Source: a virus. Taken from it: 22,896 bases of DNA. The first letter of the stretch is position 1. Each line of letters starts with the position of its first letter. Shown piece by piece: positions 76-22,896 of this stretch. The stretch covers positions 1 through 22,896 of IMG/VR virus record IMGVR_UViG_3300018033_000004. One strand, given 5' to 3'. A program made the position numbers and the translations under genes. Below the pieces are notes generated by a model. It saw nothing but the letters and a program-made list of their open reading frames with translations. It searched no databases and was not told where the DNA came from.

Positions 76-455
76 TTGGTTATTCCGGCACCAGACAGTA
101 ATTTTCCTTAATGGATTTTGACGGAAAAGATTTAAAGTGCATCCACATCCTTCAACGGAGAGCAGAGACCGTGGAGGACCATGAATCCCGGACCAATCAT
201 TCCCTGTTTCTGCCAACCTTGAACGAGGAATTGATATCGAAAAACGCAAAATTTGCGTTTTCGCAAATTTGTGTTTTTGCTCTCTCTGTGGATCAGCCAT
301 CACTCGTTTCCAAAAGCCTTTCAGATCAGGTGCGTTACAGGAGGGCCATTGGACCCCCCCTTCGACTTGTTTCTCCCCCGATCTCTCCCTGCTCCCATAC
401 GAGGAAACCCCGGCCGGCCGGGAAGTCCGGAAAGAATTGGTTCTCACAGGCTCAA
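76..455. other. Non-coding stretch left of the operon
   Basis: I see no convincing gene in this stretch. The short plus-strand frames here have no ribosome binding site and no family resemblance. It holds a hairpin terminator candidate at 236-275. Base composition changes inside it: AT-rich around 100-320, and more GC-rich around 340-440. Confidence 0.5.
236..275 (-). terminator. Hairpin terminator of the six-gene operon (candidate)
   Basis: Positions 249-270 form a perfect inverted repeat with a 9-bp stem, AAATTTGCG and CGCAAATTT, around a 4-base loop. Read on the minus strand, the stem is followed by TTGCGTTTTT. A plus-strand transcript would also have a T-rich run after the stem, so it could stop transcription from both sides. 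It lies about 190 bases after the stop of the radical SAM gene. The stem is AT-rich, so its strength is uncertain. Confidence 0.5.
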
Positions 456-1505
456 TTAGGAGAGTTTATCGTAGTGTGGCGAAAGGCACATCGGGTCGGG
501 ACACTTTGACAATTCCCCGTGGGCATAGAATTTCTGTGCCATACACCCCGATTTACAGTTTTCAAGCTTTTCACATATTTTGCATTCTGCCGCAAATTCT
601 GTCGTCAGGTATTTCCTGACAGCACCAAGGTAAGGTGATTTTGCCCAGCATTCCGGAAGAGAGTGTTTTTTGCCAATTCTTGAATACTCAGGACCAACTC
701 CAATGTTCTCAGGGGAAATATGCTTAAATGCATCGCATGGGAATATCCTGAGGTCTGGGCCTATTGTCAAGCGATCAATTCCTGATCGGCATTGCGGTTT
801 GTCTCGAAGCATGAGGAAATTGTATGGTGAGCCAAGTCGCACATCTTGGCCAGAAGTTCTAAGAGTTTCAATTATTTCAAGGAGTTCAAGATTGTTTGAA
901 TAGCTTAGCTGTTGATTCTTCTGTTGCTCGGCTCTTCCTTGTGGGACTAACCGGAGCACGCTTATGCGCCTAACCCCCATACGGCGCGCCAATCCAGCTA
1001 TTCCATACAGGGATTTATAATTATGGGACAGGGGGACAAAATGAAATTCGGTATCGAGACCAATATTTGAACAATATGATGCAATGCTAAGTGTCATTTC
1101 GAAGCTCCCCCTAACTCCGGTCACATTCTCATGCTGATCTGCACTCGCTCCAAAAAGACTAAACATCGCGCGGGAAAGACCAGCGTTTTTGAGGTTATCC
1201 ATCGCCTCCTGTGCATTCGATACATTGCCTGTTGTGTAAAGGAAAACCCCCATTCCGTTTTTTGAGGCAACCTCAACAGCATTTTGAATGTGTCCCCAGA
1301 TTAACGGTTCACCCCCTGAGAAAGCGACTTCTTTCACGCCCATAGCAGCGGCTTCATCCAAGATCTGCCTGCACGAGGCCCATTCCATACTTCTCCCGGA
1401 ATTGGCATTGGCGACACTGGAGCAATGAACACATTTCAAAAAACAATCATGCGTGACTTCGATTTTAATTTCCCTAAGCCTGAACCGCGATTGGTGATTT
1501 TCCAT
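456..1505 (-). CDS. Radical SAM enzyme with SPASM-like C-terminus
   Basis: This 349-aa protein should cleave S-adenosylmethionine at a 4Fe-4S cluster to make a radical that modifies a substrate. The cluster motif CFLKCVHC (CxxxCxxC) is at residues 21-28. FSGGEP at 62-67 fits the SAM-binding GGE motif. The last 45 residues hold a set of cysteines (CKICEKLENCKSGC, then CPDPMC) typical of SPASM or Twitch domains, which bind extra Fe-S clusters. It is the last gene of the operon, 20 bases after the kinase-like fusion gene, with no strong Shine-Dalgarno site. SPASM proteins often modify peptides, but I see no precursor peptide nearby. Given its neighbours, a nucleotide or carrier-bound group is the more likely substrate, which is inference. 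Family call is strong; substrate is unknown. Confidence 0.9.
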   Translation of the reverse strand: MENHQSRFRLREIKIEVTHDCFLKCVHCSSVANANSGRSMEWASCRQILDEAAAMGVKEVAFSGGEPLIWGHIQNAVEVASKNGMGVFLYTTGNVSNAQEAMDNLKNAGLSRAMFSLFGASADQHENVTGVRGSFEMTLSIASYCSNIGLDTEFHFVPLSHNYKSLYGIAGLARRMGVRRISVLRLVPQGRAEQQKNQQLSYSNNLELLEIIETLRTSGQDVRLGSPYNFLMLRDKPQCRSGIDRLTIGPDLRIFPCDAFKHISPENIGVGPEYSRIGKKHSLPECWAKSPYLGAVRKYLTTEFAAECKICEKLENCKSGCMAQKFYAHGELSKCPDPMCLSPHYDKLS

Positions 1506-1525
1506 ATGATTGCAATCCAGCTAAA

Positions 1526-3220
1526 TCACTTCTTTAAGAGGTTTCCTTCAATGTTCTGATTTATGTTCCACTTGGGTGGATAAAAATAATCAATTCTATC
1601 TGAAATGGGTCTGAATTTTTGTTTTATACGATTCCGTCCCGTGAGACCCTTAACTTCCGGATGTGCAATCCTGGCGTATTTGTCGACTTCGCAGAATAGA
1701 TTTTGGCAGTCAATGAGCTGAAGCTGACGACCCCAAAGATTCTCAAATTGAAGATCCAAACGTGAAAACTCCTCCTGTTGTCGATCAGCCATTAGTTTGA
1801 TCAAATCTGTTTCGCTGAGACCACCGGAGTCAGAGAAGCACTTCCTAATACCATCTTTTGCCCCTGGGCCTGGCATAACGAAAGACATTTCACTAAAATT
1901 TGTAATGGTGCTATAATTAACGTCGATTGCATATTGGTATGCTAGAAAATCACCTATCATGGGATATCCCCGCAAAAGCTCAAAAACCTCTTGCATGGAT
2001 TTGGAATCACTGATCCGTTCTGTCAGACCGTTTGTCATCATCGTTTCCAAAAGGCTAAGATGATTACGGTGCTTAGCAGAATGACCGAATGAGTGCCCTC
2101 CAGATGGCATAATATAAGCGGCAGAGTAAATGGTCTTTTTGCTTTTTTGAGCTTCGGTTAAAATTCGGTCATAAATCCGAAAATCGTATTCCCTCCAAGA
2201 TATTGAGCCTAGTTTTTCAATAAGCAATTTCCAAGTATCGATCTTGTTGAAAGTCTTGAACAGGAGAATTCGAAACAACACCTCTTTAGGGTCCAGTTCC
2301 CCTTCATAGATAACATGGCGTATCAAGAATTGGCTGACTCTATCGGAAGCCCTGTAAGCGTTTGTGAACTTGTATTGTTTAAGGATTGGGTCCTCCGTCC
2401 ATGGCTCTTTTTCTCCATTCAGTCGTTTAAAGAATATGGACTGCCTTTCCGCAGCGAAGTACCAAAAAGTATCGAAAACTTCTGTTGTTCTGGTGGGCGC
2501 CCATCGGTCTTTTTTGAATCTCGTTGCCTTGGGCTTTGTTTGGAAACGGAAAGACTTTTGTCTTGGTTTCCGGTCCCTGTTTTCATCAGAAGACCGACTC
2601 CAAATCTTCGCAAGGATGCTGTCCACAACCTCAGGCAAAGGTTTCGAATTTTCAATAATGGTTATCAGTTGACGATCTTTTTCTTCAATAGCCAGATCCT
2701 TGTACGCAGCACAAACCCTCGACCAATGATCAGGCAAAAGTTCAGCCCTGAATGGTTCGGGCCGTGTTATTAAAAACAAATTGTCGGGCCTAAGCTTTCC
2801 CCATGCTGTTCTTTCGAGTTCGATCATAGCGTAAAGGATCTCTTTCGCGACCCCCGACACCAGGCCATAGGCTATGGTTGACCACCAATACCGATCAAGG
2901 ATTATGGTCTTACCTCTGGAAAGGGCCGGGACAATTTGTCTCTCGATACAATCGACATGTGCAGCAACATGAAGGATTTGCAAACTGCCGGATGAAACCC
3001 GATCTATTCCAAGGGAGTTTGAATCATGATGCAAATCGTATACGAGTTTACCTAGCGAGTTCGGTTCATGCCCGGGGAAACTAAGGAGTAGAACTTCGGT
3101 GCCTTTTTTGCGAAGCTCTTCTGCGACGCGCCCGGCGATTGTGGTTTTCCCTACGCCATCAGAGCCTTCGAAAGCGAAAAAATTCCCGTGGAAGGGATAT
3201 TTACAGTCCTCAGATCGCAT
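1526..3220 (-). CDS. Thymidylate-kinase-like domain fused to 5-hmdU-kinase/thymine-hypermodification-type helical domain
   Basis: This 564-aa protein has two parts. Residues 1 to about 205 are thymidylate-kinase-like: P-loop EGSDGVGKTT at 18-27, FPGHEPNSLG near 48-57 in place of the family's EPGGT loop, and DRYWWS at 109-114 matching the kinase DR(Y/F)xxS motif. A basic linker (about 210-240) leads to a second domain. That domain starts near VFDTFWYFAAERQSIFF, includes EPWTEDPILKQYKFTNAYRASD, split here as PWTEDPIL and FTNAYRASD, and ends with IGDFLAYQYAID and MPGPGAKDGI. I recognise this pattern from the helical domain of phage 5-hydroxymethyl-dU DNA kinases and the related thymine pyrophosphorylase-type enzymes. 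It overlaps the upstream thymidylate-synthase-like gene by 11 bases. A role in phosphorylating or modifying a thymidine-type nucleotide or DNA base is inferred. A plain host dTMP kinase is about 210 aa, so this is not the housekeeping enzyme. Confidence 0.8.
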   Translation of the reverse strand: MRSEDCKYPFHGNFFAFEGSDGVGKTTIAGRVAEELRKKGTEVLLLSFPGHEPNSLGKLVYDLHHDSNSLGIDRVSSGSLQILHVAAHVDCIERQIVPALSRGKTIILDRYWWSTIAYGLVSGVAKEILYAMIELERTAWGKLRPDNLFLITRPEPFRAELLPDHWSRVCAAYKDLAIEEKDRQLITIIENSKPLPEVVDSILAKIWSRSSDENRDRKPRQKSFRFQTKPKATRFKKDRWAPTRTTEVFDTFWYFAAERQSIFFKRLNGEKEPWTEDPILKQYKFTNAYRASDRVSQFLIRHVIYEGELDPKEVLFRILLFKTFNKIDTWKLLIEKLGSISWREYDFRIYDRILTEAQKSKKTIYSAAYIMPSGGHSFGHSAKHRNHLSLLETMMTNGLTERISDSKSMQEVFELLRGYPMIGDFLAYQYAIDVNYSTITNFSEMSFVMPGPGAKDGIRKCFSDSGGLSETDLIKLMADRQQEEFSRLDLQFENLWGRQLQLIDCQNLFCEVDKYARIAHPEVKGLTGRNRIKQKFRPISDRIDYFYPPKWNINQNIEGNLLKK

Positions 3221-4025
3221 CAGCCAGTTCCCTATCCAATGCTTTGCAGAGAATCCTACAATCGCGTTTTTTTCCGGACCTATCGCTCAATTTCAGATTG
3301 GATGCGACACAGGTAATTCCGCGTAATTTCAGTCTCATCTCTCCGGCCATAAACCTCCCGAGCCTGAATAATCCGAGATAATTCCCGTAGGCTTTGTCCA
3401 GAAGGAGTTGGTTCGCATAAAAGGCAACGACACTGATCCCATCAGTCCCGTTCACGCCATGGGTATGGAATACAACCTGTTGCAAACAGGGGAAACCAGG
3501 AATTCGACTTTTTACATGGTCTTGAAAAGGATCAAAAATTCCAGCCTGCATCGCACTGTGGCAACGGTTCCCGTTTTCCCACTTATTAAGTATTTCTTGA
3601 AGCTGGTTGACCTTTTTTTCCTCGGTCGGTTTGCCGTAAGCTGTAAGGCGTCTAAAGTAGGTCCCTCTGTGGTTGCGGCCACATTTTTGGATTTGAGGCC
3701 ACATTTCATCGTATTCGCTGAAAAGCTTTTCGCGATCCCCATGGCAGCGCTTCCAGATCGATTCCGGGAAAATTGTGCCCGCCACCGTCTCGATATTACT
3801 CTGATTTGCCGAGCAAATACCAAAAGTAACAAGTTGTTCTTCCAATGAGCAACGGATGCTTGCCGTCTCCAATTCCCACGATCTGTTTTCTTCATCGACA
3901 TCAAAACAAACTATTTCGGGGGCGAGCACGTTGCCGCTTGCATTCCAGCATTTTACAAAGGCTTTTGCCCATGCTGCCGAAAGATTTCGACCGTGAACCG
4001 GTTTGATGGGATTAACCGCTAACAT
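3210..4025 (-). CDS. Thymidylate-synthase-like protein
   Basis: This 271-aa protein resembles the thymidylate synthase / dUMP hydroxymethylase superfamily in its second half. GFPCLQQVVFH (Cys180) is placed like the catalytic cysteine segment (PPCH) of thymidylate synthase. About 35 residues later, YGNYLGLFRLGRFMAGEM (Asn215) fits the position of the asparagine that recognises uracil rather than cytosine. The arginine-serine pair that binds phosphate in true thymidylate synthase (RSxD) appears to be replaced by YANQ. The first 120 residues are not recognisable. The start has a strong GGAGGAC ribosome site and overlaps the ImmA gene by 14 bases; the end overlaps the kinase fusion by 11. I infer that it adds a one-carbon group to a dUMP-like substrate. 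The match is by eye, so it could be a diverged or non-catalytic relative. Confidence 0.6.
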   Translation of the reverse strand: MLAVNPIKPVHGRNLSAAWAKAFVKCWNASGNVLAPEIVCFDVDEENRSWELETASIRCSLEEQLVTFGICSANQSNIETVAGTIFPESIWKRCHGDREKLFSEYDEMWPQIQKCGRNHRGTYFRRLTAYGKPTEEKKVNQLQEILNKWENGNRCHSAMQAGIFDPFQDHVKSRIPGFPCLQQVVFHTHGVNGTDGISVVAFYANQLLLDKAYGNYLGLFRLGRFMAGEMRLKLRGITCVASNLKLSDRSGKKRDCRILCKALDRELADAI

Positions 4026-4896
4026 TTGAGTCCTCCTCAGGATCAGGGAGAAAACGATATCGAGCCAAACCTTGGTAATGCTTGGAAGAGATCCGTATAT
4101 TCACAGCCCATTCATTCTCCTCAAGCGAAGCTCGAACGTAGCCTCTTGACACAGCCCGAAACATCTGCTGCCCATCAATTGTCCCATGCGGGTTAAGTCG
4201 CGGGCTATCTTCAAGCACGACACCCTTTTGCAGAACGAGAATGTCGCCAATCTCAAGATCCACAGCCCGATTCTTCCAAAGCTCATCAACTAAAATTAGC
4301 TCTGATTGCGGTGGGCAGCCGTACTGAGCTTTCAATTCCTTCGGTTGTATCTTCAACAATGTTTCACGTTGTTTTGGTTGCAGCAGTCTTAATGTCCAGG
4401 TCATGTGCTCTATCAGTGTACTGTAACCTACCCCGAAGAAGCTGGCCAAACCAAATGCTTGGTCCGACTGGAATCGGTCGGGCTGGATTTGCCGATCTTT
4501 TAAAGCGCGACGGATACTTCCCTGAGACATCAACAGGAATGCGCCGAACATATCGGCAACGAATTCGTCGGGATCTTTATATGATTGGAAACGTGTGGCA
4601 TTGAGTTCTTCTAACCGAGTGCCGTGTTTAAATTCATGGTGTCCAAGTTCATGAACACAAGTGAAAGCACGCCGTCCCGCGGGGCGTTGTGAGCCGAGTA
4701 TGATGACTGGCCTCGGGGTCGGAGCGTAAGCACCTTCGAGAGAGGGCAATGACATCAATCGGATTTCGCACCCTCTCATTTCTGCCACCTGAAAAGGATC
4801 TACCGCCGAGGTCCGTTGGATATTGCATTTTAGCCTCACTAGCTCTGCATGGGCGGCAGCACGCAGGGCAAGTTCTCTTCGGGAGAGGGCATTCAT
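4012..4896 (-). CDS. ImmA/IrrE-family metallopeptidase
   Basis: This 294-aa protein has the zinc peptidase motif HELGH at residues 82-86 in the usual ImmA/IrrE setting, followed by DPDEFVADMFGAFLLM, where Glu111 is the likely third zinc ligand. ImmA-type peptidases relieve repression by cleaving an XRE-type repressor, often one encoded next door, in mobile elements such as ICEBs1. Here the XRE gene lies directly upstream, with stop and start sharing a base (TAATG), so the two are translationally coupled. The C-terminal 130 residues, beyond the peptidase domain, are longer than in the minimal family and may sense the inducing signal. The end overlaps the thymidylate-synthase-like gene by 14 bases. 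Family call is firm; the cleavage target is inferred. Confidence 0.88.
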   Translation of the reverse strand: MNALSRRELALRAAAHAELVRLKCNIQRTSAVDPFQVAEMRGCEIRLMSLPSLEGAYAPTPRPVIILGSQRPAGRRAFTCVHELGHHEFKHGTRLEELNATRFQSYKDPDEFVADMFGAFLLMSQGSIRRALKDRQIQPDRFQSDQAFGLASFFGVGYSTLIEHMTWTLRLLQPKQRETLLKIQPKELKAQYGCPPQSELILVDELWKNRAVDLEIGDILVLQKGVVLEDSPRLNPHGTIDGQQMFRAVSRGYVRASLEENEWAVNIRISSKHYQGLARYRFLPDPEEDSNVSG

Positions 4897-5246
4897 TATT
4901 TATTCCCCTCTGGCTTGAGAGACATCAGAAGATCAATGACTTTTTCAAGATCCTCATTCTTCAGGCCAGCAACACCCCTCGCAGCCAATTGGAATTTATC
5001 CCGAAGGGGGTCAGCCTTTTGTTCCCCAACTCCTGCAAGCCATTCAATATCAACGGAGTAAAGCTCGGCAAATCTTGCTAGCTCCTCTGCGGCCACACGT
5101 CTGCGTCCAGCTTCAATCTCAGATATAGAAGGTCTAGGTAACCCGATTTCTTCTGCGACCTGGGATTGAGACAAACCGGCGCGCTCCCTGGCAATTAAAA
5201 GCCGGGAGCTAATTAGTTTCCGCTTCTCCATCATTTCATCTGTCAT
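4896..5246 (-). CDS. XRE-family helix-turn-helix repressor
   Basis: This 116-aa protein has a Cro/CI-type helix-turn-helix at about residues 13-67 (LIARERAGLSQSQVAEEIG, then RPSISEIEAGRR). The C-terminal 45 residues are mostly helical and could give dimerisation or the contact with the peptidase. It is the second gene of the operon, 20 bases after the acyl-carrier-like gene and coupled to ImmA by a TAATG overlap. The inverted repeat across the operon promoter at 5587-5612 is the obvious candidate operator, so I infer autorepression lifted by ImmA cleavage. Confidence 0.9.
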   Translation of the reverse strand: MTDEMMEKRKLISSRLLIARERAGLSQSQVAEEIGLPRPSISEIEAGRRRVAAEELARFAELYSVDIEWLAGVGEQKADPLRDKFQLAARGVAGLKNEDLEKVIDLLMSLKPEGNK

Positions 5247-5266
5247 CGGTGTTGTCCTTTTTTAAG

Positions 5267-5548
5267 TCACTTTTGCAATTTCATAATGCGATCCGCCACT
5301 TCGCCCACCGTCAAGGCATTATTTTGTCTGCCGATGAACAGGCTGGGAAAAGATAAGGTGAGACCAATGTCCAAAGCATCAAGACAGTGCACGGTCACCT
5401 GGACGCTTGCGAGGCTATCAAAAGCCTTCAGGTCACCGATTGGGCGAGTGCCCTCATCAATTGTCTCTAGCTCCTCGCTGAGGTCTTGCTGAGCTTCGCG
5501 TAAGGCATTGACCAACACTCCTACCACTTCTTGTCGCGATAGTTTCAT
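5267..5548 (-). CDS. Acyl-carrier-protein-like small protein
   Basis: This 93-aa acidic protein is the first gene of the operon, with a strong GGAGG site before its ATG. It has the layout of an acyl or peptidyl carrier protein: a first helix (residues 5-30), a loop, then DLKAFDSLASVQVTVHCL, where Asp44-Ser45-Leu46 sits like the DSL motif whose serine takes the phosphopantetheine arm. The C-terminal LTVGEVADRIMKL resembles the fourth helix of carrier proteins. A carrier in an operon with thymidine-nucleotide-type and radical SAM enzymes suggests that an activated acyl or aminoacyl group is delivered. No adenylating or acyl-transferring partner is visible in the window, so it would have to come from elsewhere. 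The fold call is by eye. Confidence 0.6.
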   Translation of the reverse strand: MKLSRQEVVGVLVNALREAQQDLSEELETIDEGTRPIGDLKAFDSLASVQVTVHCLDALDIGLTLSFPSLFIGRQNNALTVGEVADRIMKLQK

Positions 5549-6097
5549 AGCGCCCTCCAGTTTTTCATACCTTCTGTCCGATATTCTTACATAACGACGG
5601 AAATTATGTCAAGACACTTTTGGGTCAGTTTCCCGTGATATTAGACCAAAAATCCAGAATTTCGGAACTGATGCTTTAAAAACTTCGTAAATTATTCTTT
5701 ATCGTTATTTATTGAAGAATCCTGATTGGCGTGCTGAAAAATAAGGCAGTGAAATGGATGGCAAGTAGCTAACCTCATTCATTCAAAGTATGTGGGAAAC
5801 CGAGCCCCTGAACGAAATCTACTTCTCCATGGCCCGCTCAGGAAGGTGACCAGCACCTGACTGGCGTTGCCGTTCCCTCTCTTCAATCCAAGTCCTCTGA
5901 AGGTCCTCTTCGACAATAAAGGCGGAAACGAGGCGCATGGTGTCATGCTATCTGCGTTTGGGGTGTGACATGAAAGTAAGTGTGATGAAGATAAGGTGAA
6001 AGTCAGCGGCAATGCCCTTCCTTATTGGTAATATCTTGTCGGCTTTATTGATTATTTTTGAATAGAACATGATAAATTGCCGACTCAAAAGTACGTC
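5549..6097. other. Non-coding junction region between operon and phage tail gene
   Basis: Positions 5549-5720 are AT-rich and hold the operon promoter. A second imperfect symmetric element, with GGTC and GACC arms, lies at about 5631-5657. Positions 5780-5960 are GC-richer and hold a minus-strand frame at 5819-5938 (39 aa, start MRLVSAFIVEEDLQ, end ERAMEK) with protein-like composition but no ribosome site. It may be a leftover fragment of a gene. Positions 5960-6097 are AT-rich with nothing recognisable. No tRNA or clear attachment site was seen. Confidence 0.5.
5584..5612 (-). promoter_or_regulatory. Sigma70-type promoter of the operon with overlapping operator
   Basis: On the minus strand a consensus -35 box TTGACA (5607-5612) is followed after exactly 17 bases by TAAGAA (5584-5589) as the -10 box. 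Transcription would start near 5577, about 30 bases before the first gene. The same stretch is an inverted repeat: TTACATAA at 5587-5594 and TTATGTCAA at 5604-5612, 9 bases apart and differing from perfect symmetry by one inserted base. An XRE dimer bound here would cover both promoter boxes. The geometry is visible in the sequence; binding is inferred. Confidence 0.7.
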
Positions 6098-8218
6098 TTA
6101 AATAGTTGTGAATGTGTAGACGTTCACCCAGAAGTTGTATGCGAGGTCCCGGACAATCGACCCTTTGGCCTGCACGTACAGGATGTCGTAATTGATGACG
6201 ATTGGCGGAAGGTCCGCGCAGCCCACGTAATTTTGCGGAACCACTACGGTGTTTGTCGGAGTGACAGCGATCGGGGATGTGATCGCTCCCCCCACCAGAA
6301 GCCACGCGCCGCCGGCCGTCAGCACCACCAGGTTATTCATCGGAACCAGCCACTTAATGGCGTTTACCTGATTTGCGGCAATCGTCATGACGATCGCGTC
6401 GCTCGCCTGGCTCGGATTGGATACGTCCATATTCTTGAAATCCGCCGGCTGCGTCATCCAGATCGTCTGGGGACTTTGGTTCGATCCGGCGAAGACCTTT
6501 CGCTGTTGAAAATAGGTCGCGCACGATGGGAAGTTGCCCCCGGGAGCGACCGTCGCGGAAAACGTCGCGCCCGATCCGCCGCTCTGGGTGAACACGAGCG
6601 AATCTCCGTTCGTGTATCCGCTTCCCCCTGGATCGTCATACGCGGGTGGTGGTCCGCCTCCAATACCTCCAAGACCTACCGGACCTGTCGGAGCAGGCGC
6701 CCCGTGAATTGCGGTAATAACGCCGTTTGATACCTCGGCGATAAATGTTGCTCCCGTTCCCCCGCTCGCGGCCGTGATGGTCAAATCTCCGAAATAGTCC
6801 TGGCCTCCGGACAGGACCTTCACACTGACCACCGCGCCGCCGGCGATTCCCCCCGCGGTTGTGATCGTCGCAACGGCGCCGCTCCCCTGGTTGCCGGGCT
6901 GGATGCTCGGGTTCTGGTAGTTTTTCCCGCCGTTTGTAACCGTTACCGCGGTAATCACCCCGGAGACGACCGTTGGCGTAAAGATAGCGCCCGTGCCCGC
7001 AATGTCCGTGGCTATGATCTCGATGGTGTCGTCATAGCCCGATCCGCCGTCTATAACGCTAACCGTGCCGATCTGTCCTTCGACGAATGGATCTGTGCCC
7101 TGGGGAGGAGTCTGCGTAAAATCGGGGGCGATTTCCGTGTCAACAAAGCTCGGCCCGTAAGCGGTCCCGATATAGCCATACATGACATTTGCCGGCGTGA
7201 TCGTGAGATTGTAGGTCGGCTGCGCCTTGTAGATCCGGTAATACTGGGCGGCTGTGATCGGCGTCCAGCTTAGAGAATTGTACGCTCCGTCAGCCGAGTT
7301 TAGCTGCACGCCGTTTTTTGTGGCCGGCGCCGATGCGAAGGATTCGTCCGGAGGAGAAGCCGAAACGGCCGTCACCACGTAGGAGTACTGCCATTTGGTG
7401 TCCGTGTATCCGGATGTGCCTGCCGTATTGGTAAACGTGAGACCCGCTGGAGCCGCAACCGTGGGCGCAAAGGAAAGGTTTGTGAGCGCCCAGGCCCAGT
7501 GCTGCGTTCTGGTCAAATCCGCCGGCATGTAGCTTGGATGGCAAAGCGTCATGGTATCGGCGCTCTGCGTCCATTTGAGCGCCTGAACGTCTTGCCCCGC
7601 GTAAGGGGTCGCAAGAGTGTAGACGCGGGCGATCGTGCCCGATCCGCCCCAGGAAGGAAAGCTCGTCGCATTGATCGGGTTTCCGTTGAGATCGGTGAGG
7701 GTGAACGTTTGATGAAAGTTTAATCCAGCGCGCGCGACATACGAGTTCGCCACCAGATATTGTCGGGCCGGAGTTGAATCAAGGGGAGTGCCGGTGCCTG
7801 CGACATAGACCTGATCGCCGTTATTATATGGACCCGTATTAATCGGCAGGCTTATCAAAACGGGGTCGTTATTCGTTATGTTGGCAATTGTATATGCAGG
7901 CTCGAGAACATAGCCTGCACCACCCGTCGAAGAATTCATGATCACCCGCATGTAATAATGGCCGAACTCGAGTACATAGGTCTGAACGAGATTGAATTGG
8001 AAAGGGATCAAATGAACGGGCTGCTGGCTGTTGTAGCACCTTCCGACAAACTCGGTCCCCGCGCGGTTGCTTGCCCCTCCATGCACCCAGACGAAGAAAT
8101 TCCTCAAGAGCTTTGCCGCGATGTGGTACTTGGCCAGATCCACGCGCGCGTAAAGAAGAGATGGTGCAATTTCGCCTGCGGCAAATGATGTCTGGATCAT
8201 GTTCAAAAGAGGGGGCAT
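6098..8218 (-). CDS. Tail tubular protein B / tail nozzle, apparently C-terminally truncated
   Basis: This 706-aa protein begins with the signature of podovirus tail nozzle proteins (T7 gp12-like): SFAAGEIAPSLLYARVDLAKY, shown by GEIAPSLLYARVDL, then GGASNRAGTEFVG. The C-terminal part has the family's YVQAKGSIVRDLAYNF segment. In relatives this is normally followed by another 80 or more residues (a Dlt-like stretch, HLF and later segments), but here it stops about ten residues later with NVYTFTTI. A glycine-rich block at about residues 380-560 contains several repeats of a G-GY...I...G...I..V pattern and looks like an inserted beta-rich domain. The start has GGAGTGAG upstream. It should form the tip of the short tail through which DNA exits. 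The missing end suggests the tail would be defective, or that the last domain is dispensable here. Confidence 0.8.
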   Translation of the reverse strand: MPPLLNMIQTSFAAGEIAPSLLYARVDLAKYHIAAKLLRNFFVWVHGGASNRAGTEFVGRCYNSQQPVHLIPFQFNLVQTYVLEFGHYYMRVIMNSSTGGAGYVLEPAYTIANITNNDPVLISLPINTGPYNNGDQVYVAGTGTPLDSTPARQYLVANSYVARAGLNFHQTFTLTDLNGNPINATSFPSWGGSGTIARVYTLATPYAGQDVQALKWTQSADTMTLCHPSYMPADLTRTQHWAWALTNLSFAPTVAAPAGLTFTNTAGTSGYTDTKWQYSYVVTAVSASPPDESFASAPATKNGVQLNSADGAYNSLSWTPITAAQYYRIYKAQPTYNLTITPANVMYGYIGTAYGPSFVDTEIAPDFTQTPPQGTDPFVEGQIGTVSVIDGGSGYDDTIEIIATDIAGTGAIFTPTVVSGVITAVTVTNGGKNYQNPSIQPGNQGSGAVATITTAGGIAGGAVVSVKVLSGGQDYFGDLTITAASGGTGATFIAEVSNGVITAIHGAPAPTGPVGLGGIGGGPPPAYDDPGGSGYTNGDSLVFTQSGGSGATFSATVAPGGNFPSCATYFQQRKVFAGSNQSPQTIWMTQPADFKNMDVSNPSQASDAIVMTIAANQVNAIKWLVPMNNLVVLTAGGAWLLVGGAITSPIAVTPTNTVVVPQNYVGCADLPPIVINYDILYVQAKGSIVRDLAYNFWVNVYTFTTI

Positions 8219-8250
8219 AGCTCACTCCGTTTCGCTTAGGGGCTTAGGGG

Positions 8251-8339
8251 GAACCCTCACTTCGTTGCGGGTTCGCGCTTGAAGCATGAACCCACGTTTG
8301 ACATGCATAGTTCGCGCCCGATCTTTTGTGAGGGCGCAG
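8251..8339 (+). repeat. Family A repeat, copy 1
   Basis: This 89-bp element starts GAACCCTCAC and ends GTGAGGGCGCAG. Its ends are inverted repeats (CCCTCAC/GTGAGGG). It interrupts a family B sequence: TTAGGGG lies to the left and CTGAAGGGGTTTAGG to the right. Confidence 0.8.
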
Positions 8340-8361
8340 GCTGAAGGGGTTTAGGTACTTA

Positions 8362-8407
8362 CTCAGTCCTCAGTCCTTTTCTCACTCAGTCCTCAGTCCT
8401 CAGTCCT
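8362..8407 (-). repeat. Family C 7-bp array
   Basis: Units of CTGAGGA (minus strand) repeat with interruptions just beyond the end of the tail fibre gene. The tail fibre stop TAG lies at its edge. Confidence 0.75.
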
Positions 8408-10112
8408 ACAGCTCAGACCCCGTAAACAGGATAAAATCGCTCGCGCTCGTTGTATCCAATAGACAGGCGTTTCCCGCTGTTAGCCCGCTCGCAACGGTCA
8501 TATTCACAATCGCGCTGGCAGCACTCGCGGACCCCAAGGAAATCCCCGTCACGGACTGCATGCCACCGGTGGATTTCATGACCTGCCACCCGCCGTTGGC
8601 GTAGGCAATGCCGGTTGGAGCAATTCTTGCCGGCACGTTGAAAGGAATCACAAAACTTGCCGCGCCCGCGCCCGTCGCCTGGCCGGATGCAAAAATCCCG
8701 TAGCTCTGGCGAAATCCGGGAAGATACCTCTGGCATCGCATGAGCTCTTCATCGATCTTCATGCGGTCAAAAGGCGTGGCGTAGGCCCCGGCTTCGAACT
8801 GTGCGCCCGTGATATCGAGCGTTCCGGACGTCAGCCCGGTTGTGCTGGAAAACTCGATAGAGACACCGTTTACTGCGCTCGAAGGCAGCGTGAAGGTGGC
8901 CGAGTATTGATTGAGCGAGGCGTTGATGGTCCATTGCCCGCTGGCGATTTGTGTCTGTGTGCCGTAGTTGTCGGCGGCGCTCGGGTAATATGCGGCCCAG
9001 TTCAATGCTGTGATCAGACTGCTTGCCGTATAGAGACTCACGGTCACGGTGCTTCCGGCCAGATCCTCGACGTTCATGCTCTCGATTCGTTGCCCGAAAG
9101 TGATCCAGTTGTTTCCCGCAGCACCGGTCAGCCTGAAATAGTTTTTCCATGGGCCGGACCCCGCATACCGAGTGCCCGCTACAGCCGACCCGGCAACGTA
9201 GGCATACCACCGATCGACCGTGTATTGGCTGCCCCCGGTCGTGGCACTGATGCTCTGGGATGCCCCGTTATTTTTCTGATCGATTATCATTTCCGCATTG
9301 ATGAATCTGTTGCGGTTGGGAAGTATCGCCACCTGGCTCCAGTATCCCTGGTTCGTCGGGACCTCGTTGGTGCTCGACTGCAGGGCCACGTAGGCCATAC
9401 CGTTGTACTCGATGCCCATTCCCTGAGTGTATGCCGTGGCCGAGCTCCACGCCCCCTGCCAACTGATGCCCGTTGCTCCGGTCGCCCCTGTGGGGCCCAC
9501 AAGGGATGTCCCGCTGCCGGGCCACGCCCCCGCCGCCTTCGGGCCGTAGAATGTCCAGTTGGTCGTATTGATGTACCAGTCGCCGTTGACGCCGGTTCCC
9601 GACGCCGGAGCTCCGGCGCCGCTCCAAATCGTGTTGCCGTTGGTGCCGTTGGTGCCGTTTGTTCCCGCGGCGCCTGCGGGACCCTGCGGACCGACAAAGG
9701 AAACCTGTCCGGTTGCCGCCGCCTGGAGCTGCTGGATGAGCATCGTGAGGTAATCAAGGGCCGCCTCGACAACGCTTGGATAAAAGCCGCCCTGGTTGGT
9801 AAGAGACGTCCCCTGGGTGTAGGGCACAACCCTTTGAATCGTGATGCTCCACCCCGAAGGCAACGGGGATCCCGACGCCGGATAGGTGACCGTTCCCCCT
9901 GGCCCGCTTCCCCCGGAAAACTCATTTCCGTTTCCGATCCCCGTCACGTTATACTGAGAAGTCGAAAGCACGGTTGTCGCCGCCGGACTCACGTTGTTAT
10001 TCGTGATCGACACCACGAGCTGGGAAGCAGCCTGAACGATGAAGTTAAACGGGAAACTCGTGGTCGCCCCGTTTCCCTGGTATGTCACATAGGATTGCGT
10101 TGTCGTCAGCAT
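8406..10112 (-). CDS. Tail fibre with collagen-like and carbohydrate-binding segments
   Basis: The protein is 568 aa from the ATG at 10112. That start is chosen because GGAGGAG lies just upstream, at the end of the adaptor gene; a longer reading to 10253 would overlap that gene. Residues 1 to about 130 resemble the T7-type fibre N-terminus that binds the tail. Collagen-like Gly-X-Y stretches follow (GPQGPAGAAGTNGTNG and later GPTGATGATG). Next comes a segment like a small carbohydrate-binding module (WSSATAYTQGMGIEYNGMAY). The C-terminal 290 residues are beta-rich and carry MRCQRYLPGF, a pattern common in phage fibres. It should act in host recognition. It lies between the adaptor and the nozzle gene, as expected for a tail operon. 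Confidence 0.8.
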   Translation of the reverse strand: MLTTTQSYVTYQGNGATTSFPFNFIVQAASQLVVSITNNNVSPAATTVLSTSQYNVTGIGNGNEFSGGSGPGGTVTYPASGSPLPSGWSITIQRVVPYTQGTSLTNQGGFYPSVVEAALDYLTMLIQQLQAAATGQVSFVGPQGPAGAAGTNGTNGTNGNTIWSGAGAPASGTGVNGDWYINTTNWTFYGPKAAGAWPGSGTSLVGPTGATGATGISWQGAWSSATAYTQGMGIEYNGMAYVALQSSTNEVPTNQGYWSQVAILPNRNRFINAEMIIDQKNNGASQSISATTGGSQYTVDRWYAYVAGSAVAGTRYAGSGPWKNYFRLTGAAGNNWITFGQRIESMNVEDLAGSTVTVSLYTASSLITALNWAAYYPSAADNYGTQTQIASGQWTINASLNQYSATFTLPSSAVNGVSIEFSSTTGLTSGTLDITGAQFEAGAYATPFDRMKIDEELMRCQRYLPGFRQSYGIFASGQATGAGAASFVIPFNVPARIAPTGIAYANGGWQVMKSTGGMQSVTGISLGSASAASAIVNMTVASGLTAGNACLLDTTSASDFILFTGSEL

Positions 10113-19208: not shown

Positions 19209-19925
19209 TCAGTCCTGCTTTTCTTCCATCTTGGGGTACATTGCGTTCAGGAAATCCTTACCCTTGTTCACCGGTCCACCGGTCAAACTCCCCGGCTCCT
19301 TCAAAAGATTTCCCATCCTCACGAAGAACTTCACCATGGCGGGGTTATTGCCCGCGCCCGTCATGTTTAGAGCGTCCCGCAGAGCCGCGGCTTCGGCATC
19401 GTTTTTGACAAACGGATTTGACTCGCCAGGCTGGAACACCAGCGCGGCGGTCTTTACGGAATCCTGGAACTTTGTTCCACCGATTTCCGGGTCCGCTTTC
19501 ACATCGGCCTGCCACTTGGTCTGCATCTCCGACCACGCCTTGTACGGGGCCTCGGTCAGAGCCTTTATCCTGTCCCCTCCGAAACTGAGCAGCTTCTGGG
19601 CTTGCTCCTGAGTAAGGTCCAGCTCTTTTGCCAGCCCCTTGAACTCAGTCGCGCTCGCTTCATCGAGGCTTGTGCCCTCGGGCATTGTGAATTCCGCATA
19701 TTCCGCCGGCGCTTTGGGCTCCGGTTTCTTCTCCTCTTCACCCTCTTTGGGTTTCTCTTCGCCTTCAGGCGGTTTCTGTTCACCCTCAGGTGGCTTTTGC
19801 TCACCCTCGGGAGGTTTCTGCTCGCCTTCAGGAGGTTTCTGATCTCCGCCAACCAGGGAAGGAGGAGGATTTATTCCCGCCGCGAGAGCGGGCGCTGTTC
19901 CTGCATTTCCTTCAGCTTCTGGCAT
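19209..19925 (-). CDS. Capsid scaffolding protein
   Basis: This 238-aa acidic protein directly precedes the capsid gene. It has a Pro/Glu-rich start with four copies of the 7-residue unit QKPPEGE, then AEYAEFTMPEGTSLDEASAT and LAKELDLTQEQAQKLLSFGG, typical of podovirus scaffolds. NPAMVKFFVRMGNLLKEPG near the end is also typical. It ends NAMYPKMEEKQD, and its stop lies inside a family C repeat. It should fold the procapsid and then leave. It overlaps the HNH gene by 14 bases. Confidence 0.83.
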   Translation of the reverse strand: MPEAEGNAGTAPALAAGINPPPSLVGGDQKPPEGEQKPPEGEQKPPEGEQKPPEGEEKPKEGEEEKKPEPKAPAEYAEFTMPEGTSLDEASATEFKGLAKELDLTQEQAQKLLSFGGDRIKALTEAPYKAWSEMQTKWQADVKADPEIGGTKFQDSVKTAALVFQPGESNPFVKNDAEAAALRDALNMTGAGNNPAMVKFFVRMGNLLKEPGSLTGGPVNKGKDFLNAMYPKMEEKQD

Positions 19926-20346
19926 GTCTTTCCCTTTCCATCTTTGCTGTGACTAAAAAGTTATACAGGGCCGGGTCTTGCTTTCTTACGGCCTCTAAAA
20001 TCTGCCGGTCCGGACTTTTCCTGTGTTCGTCGCACTCCTCGCGCACGTCCTTGTTGAAATCCTTCCAGTCCCCGCTGTGGCCGTGGAAGAGATGGCAATT
20101 CAAATATCCGCCCTCTTCGCAAAGCGTGATCAGGTTGAAATCTTCGAGTTCAAGCCCCGGATGAACGTGGAAGGGCACGATGTGGTGCACCTGGAGCTTT
20201 CCACCGTTTTCTTTTTTAGCTCCGCACCACTGGCACTCCGGCTCTTTTTCCAGGTGTTCCTGCTCAATCTTGTGCCATTTCGGGCTTCGAAGCTTGGCTA
20301 CCTTGCCCTTGATTACGTCGTGGATATACTTGAGGTGTCTTTGCAT
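19912..20346 (-). CDS. HNH endonuclease
   Basis: This 144-aa protein has a zinc pair CQWC, then LQVHHIVPFHVHPGLELEDF, NLITLC and GYLNCHLFHGH, which match the His-Asn-His nuclease core with its second Cys pair. HNH proteins near phage packaging genes can assist terminase, but free-standing HNH genes are also homing endonucleases. Here it sits between the Bbp19-like and scaffold genes rather than beside a terminase. It overlaps the scaffold gene by 14 bases. Confidence 0.85.
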   Translation of the reverse strand: MQRHLKYIHDVIKGKVAKLRSPKWHKIEQEHLEKEPECQWCGAKKENGGKLQVHHIVPFHVHPGLELEDFNLITLCEEGGYLNCHLFHGHSGDWKDFNKDVREECDEHRKSPDRQILEAVRKQDPALYNFLVTAKMERERHARS

Positions 20347-21036: not shown

Positions 21037-21075
21037 TTTACTCAGTCCTCAGTCCTGAACAACTCAGTCCTCAGT
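21037..21075 (-). repeat. Family C array between the glycosidase-repeat protein and the Bbp19-like gene
   Basis: Several CTGAGGA units are interrupted by GTTGTTC. The TGA stop of the glycosidase-repeat protein belongs to the first unit. Confidence 0.75.
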
Positions 21076-22896
21076 AGTGTCCGTGCCCCTGAAAGAGTTG
21101 ATGCCAAAAATCGCGCCAATGGCTTTGCGTTGGATACACGGTCTTTCCAAAAGACCCCCCTGCAACCGCGCCGCCCTTCATGCTCCACTTCATACAGGCA
21201 ACTTTCGTGAAATGCCCTCCGGCCACCGCTCCGCCCGACATGGAGACTCTGTACAACTGCACATTCGTCCCGCTTTCCGTGAACGATCCGCCCACAACCG
21301 CGCCGCCTTGCATAGAAACAGTATACGTAGTTCCACTCTGCGAATGCGTCGTCATCCCGAAAGAACCCCCCGCGACGGCGCCGCCGGACATACTGACGGT
21401 GTAGTTGACCTCCCCGTAATAAAACGTGGTGACACTGGCAGCCGGGAGCGTATAGGAAAATGAATTCGAAGATACCGTTACGGGCGTTTGAGGAGCAAGG
21501 GATTGGGTCGCAGACGTAACATAGGGAGTTACGCTTGCCGCGCTGAGCCCCCCGGATAGTGAAAAGGTTGTGCCGGCCGCAGAACCCGAGTTCACCGCCA
21601 CAATCGCGAAATCGCCTCCGGAGGATTTGAACGCGCTTACCGCTTGGCTGCCCGTTCCTCCGGTAACATCTATCCGGGTCCAGCCCGGGCGCACGAACTT
21701 GCTCCAGTTTCCCGTTGCATAGGCCCGTAATGGAATGTTTCCGTTTATGTCGGTTAAAGCCGCATTGTCGGTCCCGTTGCCGTTCCCCACCATATCAGTC
21801 AGAAACCACCAGACATAAGCGTTGACGTTGGCAACCGCGAGGTAATTGTGAATGATTTGCGCGCAGGTAAGCGCATCGCTCATGCTGCCGTTGTAGCTGC
21901 TCGATCCGCTCTGGTTGGAATCCTCGGTCACCCAGACGTGCTTGCCGTAATTAGTGGCGGAAACGATATCGCCATCCCCGGAATAACCGTGTTGCGCCAT
22001 GATCCCCACATCGGGCGAAACCGATCCGTCGTTCATCGTTGTCGCGGCAAATCCGTCATAGGTGCTCGACCATGACGAGTTTTCCGGAAACATGATCTCA
22101 GGAGTGTAGCCCGAAGATGCGATCGCCGAATAAAGATAGGGGATGAAGTCATGAAACTGCTGTGCCGTCCAGGTTGCCGAAGGGTAGCCCTCTGACGCAT
22201 CCGGCTCGTTTTGCGGGCTGATCGCAGTGATCGTGATGCCGTATCCCGCCATGAACGCCGGATAGGACGCCAAATCCGCCGCATAGTTGGTATAGTTGGT
22301 GGAGTTCCCGATGAAGCTTCCGCCATTGTAAAACGACCCGTTGGCCTTCATGGAACCTGGAGGGCTCCAACTCGACGCAAAGATCGTCGTCACACCGCGC
22401 GCGGCGGCTTGTTGAGCCACCAGCGGCTCTCCCGTCATAGCTGTTGCACCCGAGGCGACCGTGATGCACTCACTCGCGGGCTGGCTTTCACTCGTCCTCC
22501 ACGCCTGGCAGGAAGCAAGATCGGGCATGATCTGCGTGCGAAGGATAGAAAGTCCTATGCCCGAACCCGTAAAGAAAAAATCGGCCAACTGAGTTGTAAG
22601 AGGAGACACAAAATCGGCACAGGACGCGCCGAACCCGTCAATCGTCTGGTGCGTCACCCCTGCATTTATGGTCCATCCGACCGATGTTGCCGCCTCGGTG
22701 AAACTCCCCCCCGCAACCGCGCCTGCCATCTTTACAACATGGCCGGCAACCTTGGTAAAACTTCCACCGGCAACGGCCCCGCCGGACATGGACGTCGTGT
22801 AGTTCTGGGTCCCGTGATTCTCTACTACTGTGAAGCTTCCGCCCGCAACCGCCCCGCCCGCCATTGAAACGACGTGGCCGGCCTTCTTGGTAAAGC
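21071..22896 (-). CDS. GH30-like glycosidase embedded in GGAVAGGSF repeats (5' partial)
   Basis: The frame stays open to the window edge, and the codons before the ATG at 22864 encode FTKKAGHVVS, part of another repeat, so the gene begins outside the window. Three visible GGAVAGGSF-type units precede, and four follow, a glycosidase domain that starts WTINAGVTHQTIDGFGASCA. The domain has SILRTQIMPD, SSWSPPGSMKANGS, SPQNEPD and HVWVTEDSNQ, which fit clan A family 30 hydrolases. The acid/base Glu would be at 22205-22207 and the nucleophile Glu at 21923-21925. FVRPGWTRIDVT then a beta domain completes it. No signal peptide is visible. A virion-borne polysaccharide-degrading spike is plausible. 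The end is HQLFQGHGHY. Confidence 0.75.
   Translation of the reverse strand, partial: FTKKAGHVVSMAGGAVAGGSFTVVENHGTQNYTTSMSGGAVAGGSFTKVAGHVVKMAGAVAGGSFTEAATSVGWTINAGVTHQTIDGFGASCADFVSPLTTQLADFFFTGSGIGLSILRTQIMPDLASCQAWRTSESQPASECITVASGATAMTGEPLVAQQAAARGVTTIFASSWSPPGSMKANGSFYNGGSFIGNSTNYTNYAADLASYPAFMAGYGITITAISPQNEPDASEGYPSATWTAQQFHDFIPYLYSAIASSGYTPEIMFPENSSWSSTYDGFAATTMNDGSVSPDVGIMAQHGYSGDGDIVSATNYGKHVWVTEDSNQSGSSSYNGSMSDALTCAQIIHNYLAVANVNAYVWWFLTDMVGNGNGTDNAALTDINGNIPLRAYATGNWSKFVRPGWTRIDVTGGTGSQAVSAFKSSGGDFAIVAVNSGSAAGTTFSLSGGLSAASVTPYVTSATQSLAPQTPVTVSSNSFSYTLPAASVTTFYYGEVNYTVSMSGGAVAGGSFGMTTHSQSGTTYTVSMQGGAVVGGSFTESGTNVQLYRVSMSGGAVAGGHFTKVACMKWSMKGGAVAGGSFGKTVYPTQSHWRDFWHQLFQGHGHY

Follow-up and report, generated by a model that had tools for sequence, protein, structure and literature searches.

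A phage-borne operon that joins an acyl-carrier-like protein and a repressor–peptidase pair to relatives of thymine-hypermodification enzymes

The closest described systems are the thymidine hypermodification cassettes of phages such as M6, PaMx11 and ViI. An M6-like cassette comprises genes for a pyrimidine hydroxymethylase, Nmad5, aGPT-PPlase1, a nucleotide kinase, a radical SAM enzyme, a PLP enzyme and aGPT-PPlase2 (PMC9476957). The operon described here has in common with them a homologue of M6 gp55 and PaMx11 gp50 (Pfam family HMUDK_hel), an enzyme of the thymidylate synthase (TS) family and a nucleotide-type kinase. In place of the P-loop 5-hmdU DNA kinase of the phage cassettes, however, it has a domain of the thymidylate kinase (TMPK) type, and PUGT/aGPT-PPlase2 and a PLP enzyme were not found in the operon. 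A radical SAM enzyme is also present in the M6 cassette (gp53; PMC9476957), yet it is unrelated by sequence to that of the operon and was rejected as its counterpart. What the operon adds is an acyl carrier protein (ACP), control genes of the HTH and ImmA types and, in some loci, a phosphopantetheinyl transferase.

Nucleotide-centric conflict systems with TIR, SLOG, Nmad2, MazG_C and HMUDK_hel were reportedly described by Burroughs et al. in 2015. The partnership of HMUDK_hel with MazG_C is common to these systems and to our loci, and one locus of our collection (L109) even combines TIR, Nmad2, HMUDK_hel and radical SAM. The conflict loci are, however, without the ACP-HTH-ImmA-TS block.

At the level of domain types, at which we compared them, the operon also resembles the DefensePredictor-validated E. 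coli sets (Science 2026, PMC13092281). According to the main text of that report, phage infection is reduced by sets in which TS, dNMP kinase and 5-hmdU kinase domains occur; the words "acyl carrier" are absent from this main text. A published description of the six-gene system was not found, although older key literature may mention it. We found no description of an ACP accompanied by its own transferase, nor of the shared operator; the system as such is related to the known thymine-modification and nucleotide-centric ones. Our reading, held with slightly better than even confidence, is that the cassette can be induced, moves horizontally and encodes a pathway of the thymine-hypermodification type, which serves as phage or prophage cargo in the conflict between phage and host.

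The operon and its phage contig

The window, i.e., the whole stretch of 22,896 bases that was analysed, is an IMG/VR virus record. Its other genes, among them those for tail proteins, a major capsid protein of the GP7 type, a protease and an endolysin, share the strand of the operon, which is oriented like the late genes. A sequence-only reading of this DNA had proposed six same-strand genes behind one promoter, and all six were found together with a sigma-70-type promoter at 5612–5583. According to the ORF calls the coding span is 456–5548, entirely on the minus strand; the end point 5612 of the earlier reading is the first base of the promoter, while the coding part stops at 5548. From the promoter end the features are:

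5583–5612, minus strand: sigma-70-type promoter TTGACA-18-AAGAAT with TG before the second hexamer (from a consensus scan only, 10/12 matches)
5576–5590, minus strand: operator-like site GTAAGAATATCGGAC, overlapping the -10 element, with 2 mismatches to GTAAGANNNTCTTAC
5267–5548, minus strand: ACP-like protein of 93 aa, with the family's invariant residue, Ser45, in the motif FDSL
4896–5246, minus strand: XRE/HTH_3 repressor, 116 aa (HTH_3 5e-14; PADLOC capH 3e-12)
4012–4896, minus strand: ImmA/IrrE-type M78 metallopeptidase, 294 aa (Peptidase_M78 2e-12; PADLOC capP 1e-13; HELGH and E111 conserved)
3210–4025, minus strand: divergent enzyme of predicted thymidylate synthase fold, 271 aa (TIGR03283 1e-8)
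1526–3220, minus strand: TMPK+HMUDK_hel fusion, 564 aa (Thymidylate_kin 9e-18; HMUDK_hel 6e-116)
456–1505, minus strand: radical SAM enzyme, 349 aa (Radical_SAM 3e-19; CxxxCxxC and C-terminal SPASM-like cysteines)
249–270, minus strand: terminator-like hairpin 3' of the operon; the stem has 9 bp, and both strands have a T-rich flank

The genes are tightly packed. Gaps of 20 bases separate the ACP-like gene from the XRE gene and the fusion from the radical SAM gene; XRE and ImmA overlap by 1 base, ImmA and the TS-like gene by 14, the TS-like gene and the fusion by 11. Terminator-like hairpins are not more numerous in the region than in shuffled sequence. The operon stops 455 bases short of the window's left end, with phage DNA on one flank only, and further operon genes may lie beyond that end. 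Its GC content is 46.6%, as against 56.5% in the rest of the window with its phage genes, and GC3 is also lower; this difference suggests that the operon is acquired cargo of a phage or prophage.

Improbable in our view is that the operon modifies the DNA of the phage that carries it, as a protection against restriction like in M6 and ViI. A phage contig, late-gene orientation and a phage hypermodification family such as HMUDK_hel would fit this idea, but an operator-like site accompanies the operon's own promoter, and the GC content of the operon is unlike that of the phage. The operon yielded neither a 5-hmdU kinase nor a hydroxymethylase of the phage type, the TS-like gene is without a match among 50,697 INPHARED phage records, and the cassette is also met on plasmids and chromosomes, several times near defence genes.

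Transfer RNA genes and Rfam families were not detected in the window. An HNH endonuclease gene (19912–20346, minus strand) adjoins the capsid protease gene. Amid the phage structural genes, a 597-aa protein (21071–22864, minus strand) matches glycosyl hydrolase family 30 at 1e-10; it is possibly a depolymerase or an acquired polysaccharide hydrolase.

Spread and variants of the cassette

Forty-seven HMUDK_hel loci, the window included, were fetched and searched with purpose-built profiles. The sequence-only reading proved largely correct, apart from the fusion protein, for which it needs amending. It had staked its case on co-occurrence of the genes in other genomes, and this was indeed found: HTH, ImmA and TS-like genes stand together in 27 of the 47 loci, the set with a TS-like gene being identical to the set with ImmA. 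That the window's gene block returns in 26 other loci from several phyla makes it more than a chance assembly. These core loci belong to Cyanobacteriota, Pseudomonadota, Acidobacteriota, Bacteroidota and Actinomycetota; a recognisable ACP is present in 22 of them, a TMPK-type domain in nine, where it is fused in some and separate in others. The cassette is widespread and mobile, residing also on plasmids and chromosomes, and the operon is its copy in a phage. Alignment searches yielded 31 HMUDK_hel loci and three TS loci. The fusion, used as a single-protein query against IMG/VR, found no relative, and a DNA search for an E. coli homologue with one test query gave no match in E. coli genomes.

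The cassette varies in composition. Rhizobial and sphingomonad plasmids carry HTH, ImmA, a C1 peptidase and the TS-like gene together with a uracil-DNA glycosylase (UDG), in L093 and L094 also with MazG; the C1-peptidase cassettes of L093, L094 and L095 lie at about 4400–9500. An archaeal version on a Haloarcula plasmid (L092, 1519–7708) consists of dTMP kinase, HMUDK_hel, an Sfp-type transferase, a small protein, HTH, ImmA, C1 peptidase and TS-like genes and is located near a restriction endonuclease gene. The prophage-like contig L099 has a C1-peptidase-type block with HMUDK_hel and a phage-type hydroxymethylase beside an integrase-like gene. In L096 and L097 the order is DUF1643-ACP-HTH-ImmA-TS-MazG; the L096 copy is flanked by terminase and portal genes, and L097 resembles it.

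Further HMUDK_hel genes belong to TIR/Nmad2/SLOG loci or have DUF1643 and MazG as neighbours. In cyanobacterial loci without the ACP block (L062-L066, L068, L069), HMUDK_hel and MazG are about 900 bases apart, and in the two examined, L062 and L066, a DUF1643 gene lies between them.

Enzymes and carrier protein

The fusion protein consists of a thymidylate-kinase-type domain (about residues 12–214) and an HMUDK_hel domain of the aGPT-PPlase1 type (residues 246–525). The latter finds PaMx11 gp50 at 1e-24 and M6 gp55 at 3e-14 by blastp. The earlier description as a thymidylate-kinase/hypermodification-type fusion thus holds in so far as the C-terminal part belongs to the thymine-hypermodification family of these two phage proteins; this part is, however, not a kinase. 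The gp50/gp55 gene adjoins a kinase gene near a hydroxymethylase gene, in M6 and PaMx11 between the 5-hmdU DNA kinase and the dUMP hydroxymethylase. By this gene order gp50/gp55 would be aGPT-PPlase1, which makes the Pfam name "kinase, helical domain" misleading. The same order as in PaMx11 is seen in L077, L085, L088, L089 and L099, where a phage-type hydroxymethylase TS directly follows HMUDK_hel; the protein of L088 is 39% identical to PaMx11 gp51.

The predicted structure of the HMUDK_hel domain (pLDDT 94) is almost entirely helical. Among solved structures it is best matched, with Z 8–10, by the queuosine enzyme DUF2419, the 5-PmdU glycinyltransferase of PaMx11 (8z2m) and HhH DNA glycosylases. 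The Foldseek E value is 0.3, and for helical proteins a Z of about 10 may reflect no more than a like arrangement of helices; the model is therefore no more than suggestive of a DNA-glycosylase-like arrangement, i.e., the HhH fold of PUGT, AlkA and OGG. The TMPK-type domain has no significant match to the phage 5-hmdU DNA kinases PaMx11 gp49 and M6 gp54. Within the operon, as contained in this fragment, neither a phage-type P-loop 5-hmdU DNA kinase nor a hydroxymethylase-type TS was found, which leaves the source of an activated 5-methylene group unproven.

The 271-aa protein is only weakly recognised as a TS by family models (TIGR03283 1e-8). Its model (pLDDT 81), however, adopts the TS fold and superimposes with Z 15–17 over about 200 residues on AfhB, MilA and ThyA. 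Cys180 and Asn215 are invariant in the family. In TS, the arginine of the RSxD motif helps to bind the phosphate of dUMP. Profile alignment with phage-type TS places Ala204 at this position, while distant sister clades retain the arginine, and this loss implies that the substrate of the clade may differ. The TS fold and Cys180 thus bear out what had been called a thymidylate-synthase-like protein, but a role as hydroxymethylase does not follow, since the clade has lost the arginine. MilA and the dCMP/dUMP hydroxymethylases share the TS fold (profile match to MilA with E 0.007, structural Z 15–17), yet differ in the arginine that is missing here.

The carrier protein of the window alone has no Pfam match. 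In the alignment of its family (20 members) a single column is invariant, the phosphopantetheine Ser45 of FDSL; eight of the 20 members match PP-binding in Pfam, the window protein not being among them. When the family profile was searched against the PDB, the best ACP scored E 1e-5, whereas the top row was a designed repeat protein. Phosphopantetheinyl transferase genes are near the cassette in 11 related loci: AcpS in the fetched neighbourhood of eight of the 27 core loci and in L094 and L095, and an Sfp-type enzyme in L092. Presence of a housekeeping transferase gene at such loci by chance would be rare. These genes are the best evidence that the ACP would be phosphopantetheinylated; none was seen in the window itself. 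With the invariant serine, the profile match to solved ACPs and the transferases nearby, the first gene, previously just called carrier-like, looks like a genuine ACP. An amino-acid or acyl donor for it is not encoded in the operon.

Of course, the ACP-HTH-ImmA-TS block could mainly be a sensor and switch in which the TS-like protein and the ACP inform the peptidase of the state of nucleotides, folate or acyl groups, with the variable genes (HMUDK_hel, MazG, radical SAM, C1 peptidase, UDG) as effectors. The block is constant and its partners change, from HMUDK_hel to C1 peptidase plus UDG (L093-L095) and to MazG alone in the fetched stretch (L096, L097), and a TS-like clade devoid of the RSxD arginine would suit a sensor. 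The invariant Cys and Asn of the TS-like protein and the ACP serine, however, point to chemistry rather than sensing alone, and we give this idea little credence.

The radical SAM enzyme had been recognised from the letters alone, and Radical_SAM (3e-19), the CxxxCxxC motif and the C-terminal SPASM-like cysteines agree. These cysteines were read in the window sequence; the SPASM Pfam domain itself is matched only in the relative from L109. The enzyme is common to the window, L003 and L070-L072, which form one clade with a support of 0.997. Among the 27 core loci, MazG or MazG_C is present in 19 and radical SAM in five, but never both. In the radical SAM clade the enzyme thus stands in place of the MazG-type pyrophosphohydrolase. 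Radical SAM matches in INPHARED were discarded as relatives: they are only 21–24% identical, and the one inspected sits in a PQQ gene cluster. On the IMG/VR contig L109 (6862–9949), genes for TIR (ThsB-like), a Nmad2-like protein, HMUDK_hel and a related SPASM radical SAM enzyme stand in a row. The link of HMUDK_hel to radical SAM therefore recurs in another context.

The enzyme might be taken as a prokaryotic viperin, but the pVip models (3e-11) are far surpassed by PqqE (2e-32), NirJ, mycofactocin and other SPASM families, and this assignment was dropped. The weak match nevertheless belongs to a broader idea with viperin-like logic, according to which the product is not a DNA base but a free nucleotide or dNTP analogue that serves as chain terminator, pool poison or signal. 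Free nucleotides are what TMPK, MazG and the neighbours of the dCTP-deaminase-like and dUTPase types act on, and other HMUDK_hel genes have TIR, SLOG and Nmad2 as partners, as is typical of defence by nucleotide signals. HMUDK_hel, however, groups with phage genes of a DNA-directed pathway (PMC9476957), and its model has a modest match to the fold of DNA glycosylases. Together with the preference of the radical SAM enzyme for models other than pVip, this makes a free nucleotide unlikely, if well worth keeping in mind, as the product.

Control, proposed pathway and conflict

The regulatory genes are reminiscent of CapH+CapP and of ImmR/ImmA, in that an HTH repressor and an M78 peptidase adjoin at the promoter end, next to an operator-like site. 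CapP is a protease activated by ssDNA (PMC13373217), and PprI offers ssDNA-linked peptidase control as its analogue (PMC10904395). CapH+CapP controls CBASS, whereas the present pair would control a thymine-pathway operon; sequence similarity is low, and cleavage of the repressor is here presumed by analogy. A CBASS CD-NTase model is not matched by any of the six operon proteins. The PADLOC labels RmrA, PDC-M51 and PDC-M69 were judged to reflect shared domains.

The 150 bases upstream of the ACP start were searched for palindromes in 22 operons, and for the window copy the whole contig of 22,896 bases. The palindrome GTAAGANNNTCTTAC is found at the promoter, upstream of the ACP gene, in 21 of the 22 operons; the copies are exact in 14, have one mismatch in four and two mismatches in three, the window being among the last. 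An exact copy in 150 bases has a chance of about 1e-5, although the motif was derived from the same sequences and some loci are close kin, so that the 14 exact copies are not independent events. The site at 5576–5590 is the only one with up to two mismatches in the 22,896 bases, a match reached by seven of 500 shuffles of the 150 upstream bases. L089, the C1-peptidase variants and L014, a distant locus from an actinobacterium, lack the palindrome; in L094 and L095, however, the block is preceded by an imperfect palindrome of similar kind, GTTTGATTTTCGGAC. A 6-bp inverted repeat in the window promoter, ACATAA...TTATGT, was rejected as operator, being no better than shuffled sequence. The conserved operator-like site supports the repressor control postulated earlier, presumably by action of the XRE protein on the palindrome. 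The zinc motif (HExxH) of the ImmA-type protein is intact and conserved in the family; palindrome and intact peptidase fit a control of the CapH+CapP/PprI type, with cleavage as its putative trigger.

The pathway that we propose would thus begin with the XRE protein repressing the promoter via the palindrome. A stress signal, probably ssDNA as with CapP and PprI, would make the ImmA-type peptidase cleave the repressor and switch the operon on. The TS-fold enzyme would then perform Cys-initiated C5 chemistry on a uracil-type substrate, and the TMPK-type domain would phosphorylate the modified nucleotide. The aGPT-PPlase1-like domain would act on the activated 5-methylene of a thymine derivative, most likely in DNA, while the phosphopantetheine arm of the ACP would supply or accept a bound group. 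Finally, the radical SAM enzyme, or the MazG-type pyrophosphohydrolase in other clades, would finish the product or clean the nucleotide pool. Gene content, conservation, families, catalytic residues, the operator-like site and synteny with phage hypermodification genes were computed; from them we infer every reaction, the order of the steps, the cargo of the ACP and the choice between self and invader DNA as target.

In a bolder variant, to be regarded as a long shot, the ACP would bear the pyrimidine itself or provide the nucleophile: the phosphopantetheine thiol of holo-ACP would trap the electrophilic 5-methylene intermediate of the TS-like enzyme. The resulting ACP-tethered pyrimidine would be processed by the TMPK, aGPT-PPlase1-like and radical SAM domains into a new DNA base or a nucleotide weapon. 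If true, DNA modification and immunity would gain a new principle, in which a nucleobase undergoes carrier-protein chemistry.

If the pathway proposed above is right, phages, an archaeal plasmid and five or more bacterial phyla harbour an unnamed class of thymine-modification operons that are mobile and inducible, and carrier-protein biochemistry is tied to DNA-base or nucleotide chemistry. The class would also account for many plasmid genes whose only annotation is "acyl carrier protein", "thymidylate synthase" or "nucleotide kinase domain-containing protein", and a likely new type of phage defence or DNA protection could be studied on it in a defined setting.

A role in the conflict between phage and host is likely from the defence neighbours and from the validated E. 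coli anti-phage sets, which, as the main text has it, include TS and 5-hmdU-kinase domains (PMC13092281). In a plain listing with no background rate, type I restriction is near L003, L070-L072 and L086, Lamassu LmuA near L012 and Shedu near L094; a CBASS phospholipase is found in the related L009 and TIR proteins in other HMUDK_hel loci. HMUDK_hel is present but the ACP block absent in L009, L086 and the TIR loci. The product is probably used as a weapon or shield between phages and microbes.

A Mesorhizobium plasmid (L015, 7941–14600) carries a TMPK-type gene 38% identical to the N-terminus of the fusion, together with genes for TIR, Nmad2-like and MazG-type proteins, a uracil-DNA glycosylase and further TIR proteins.
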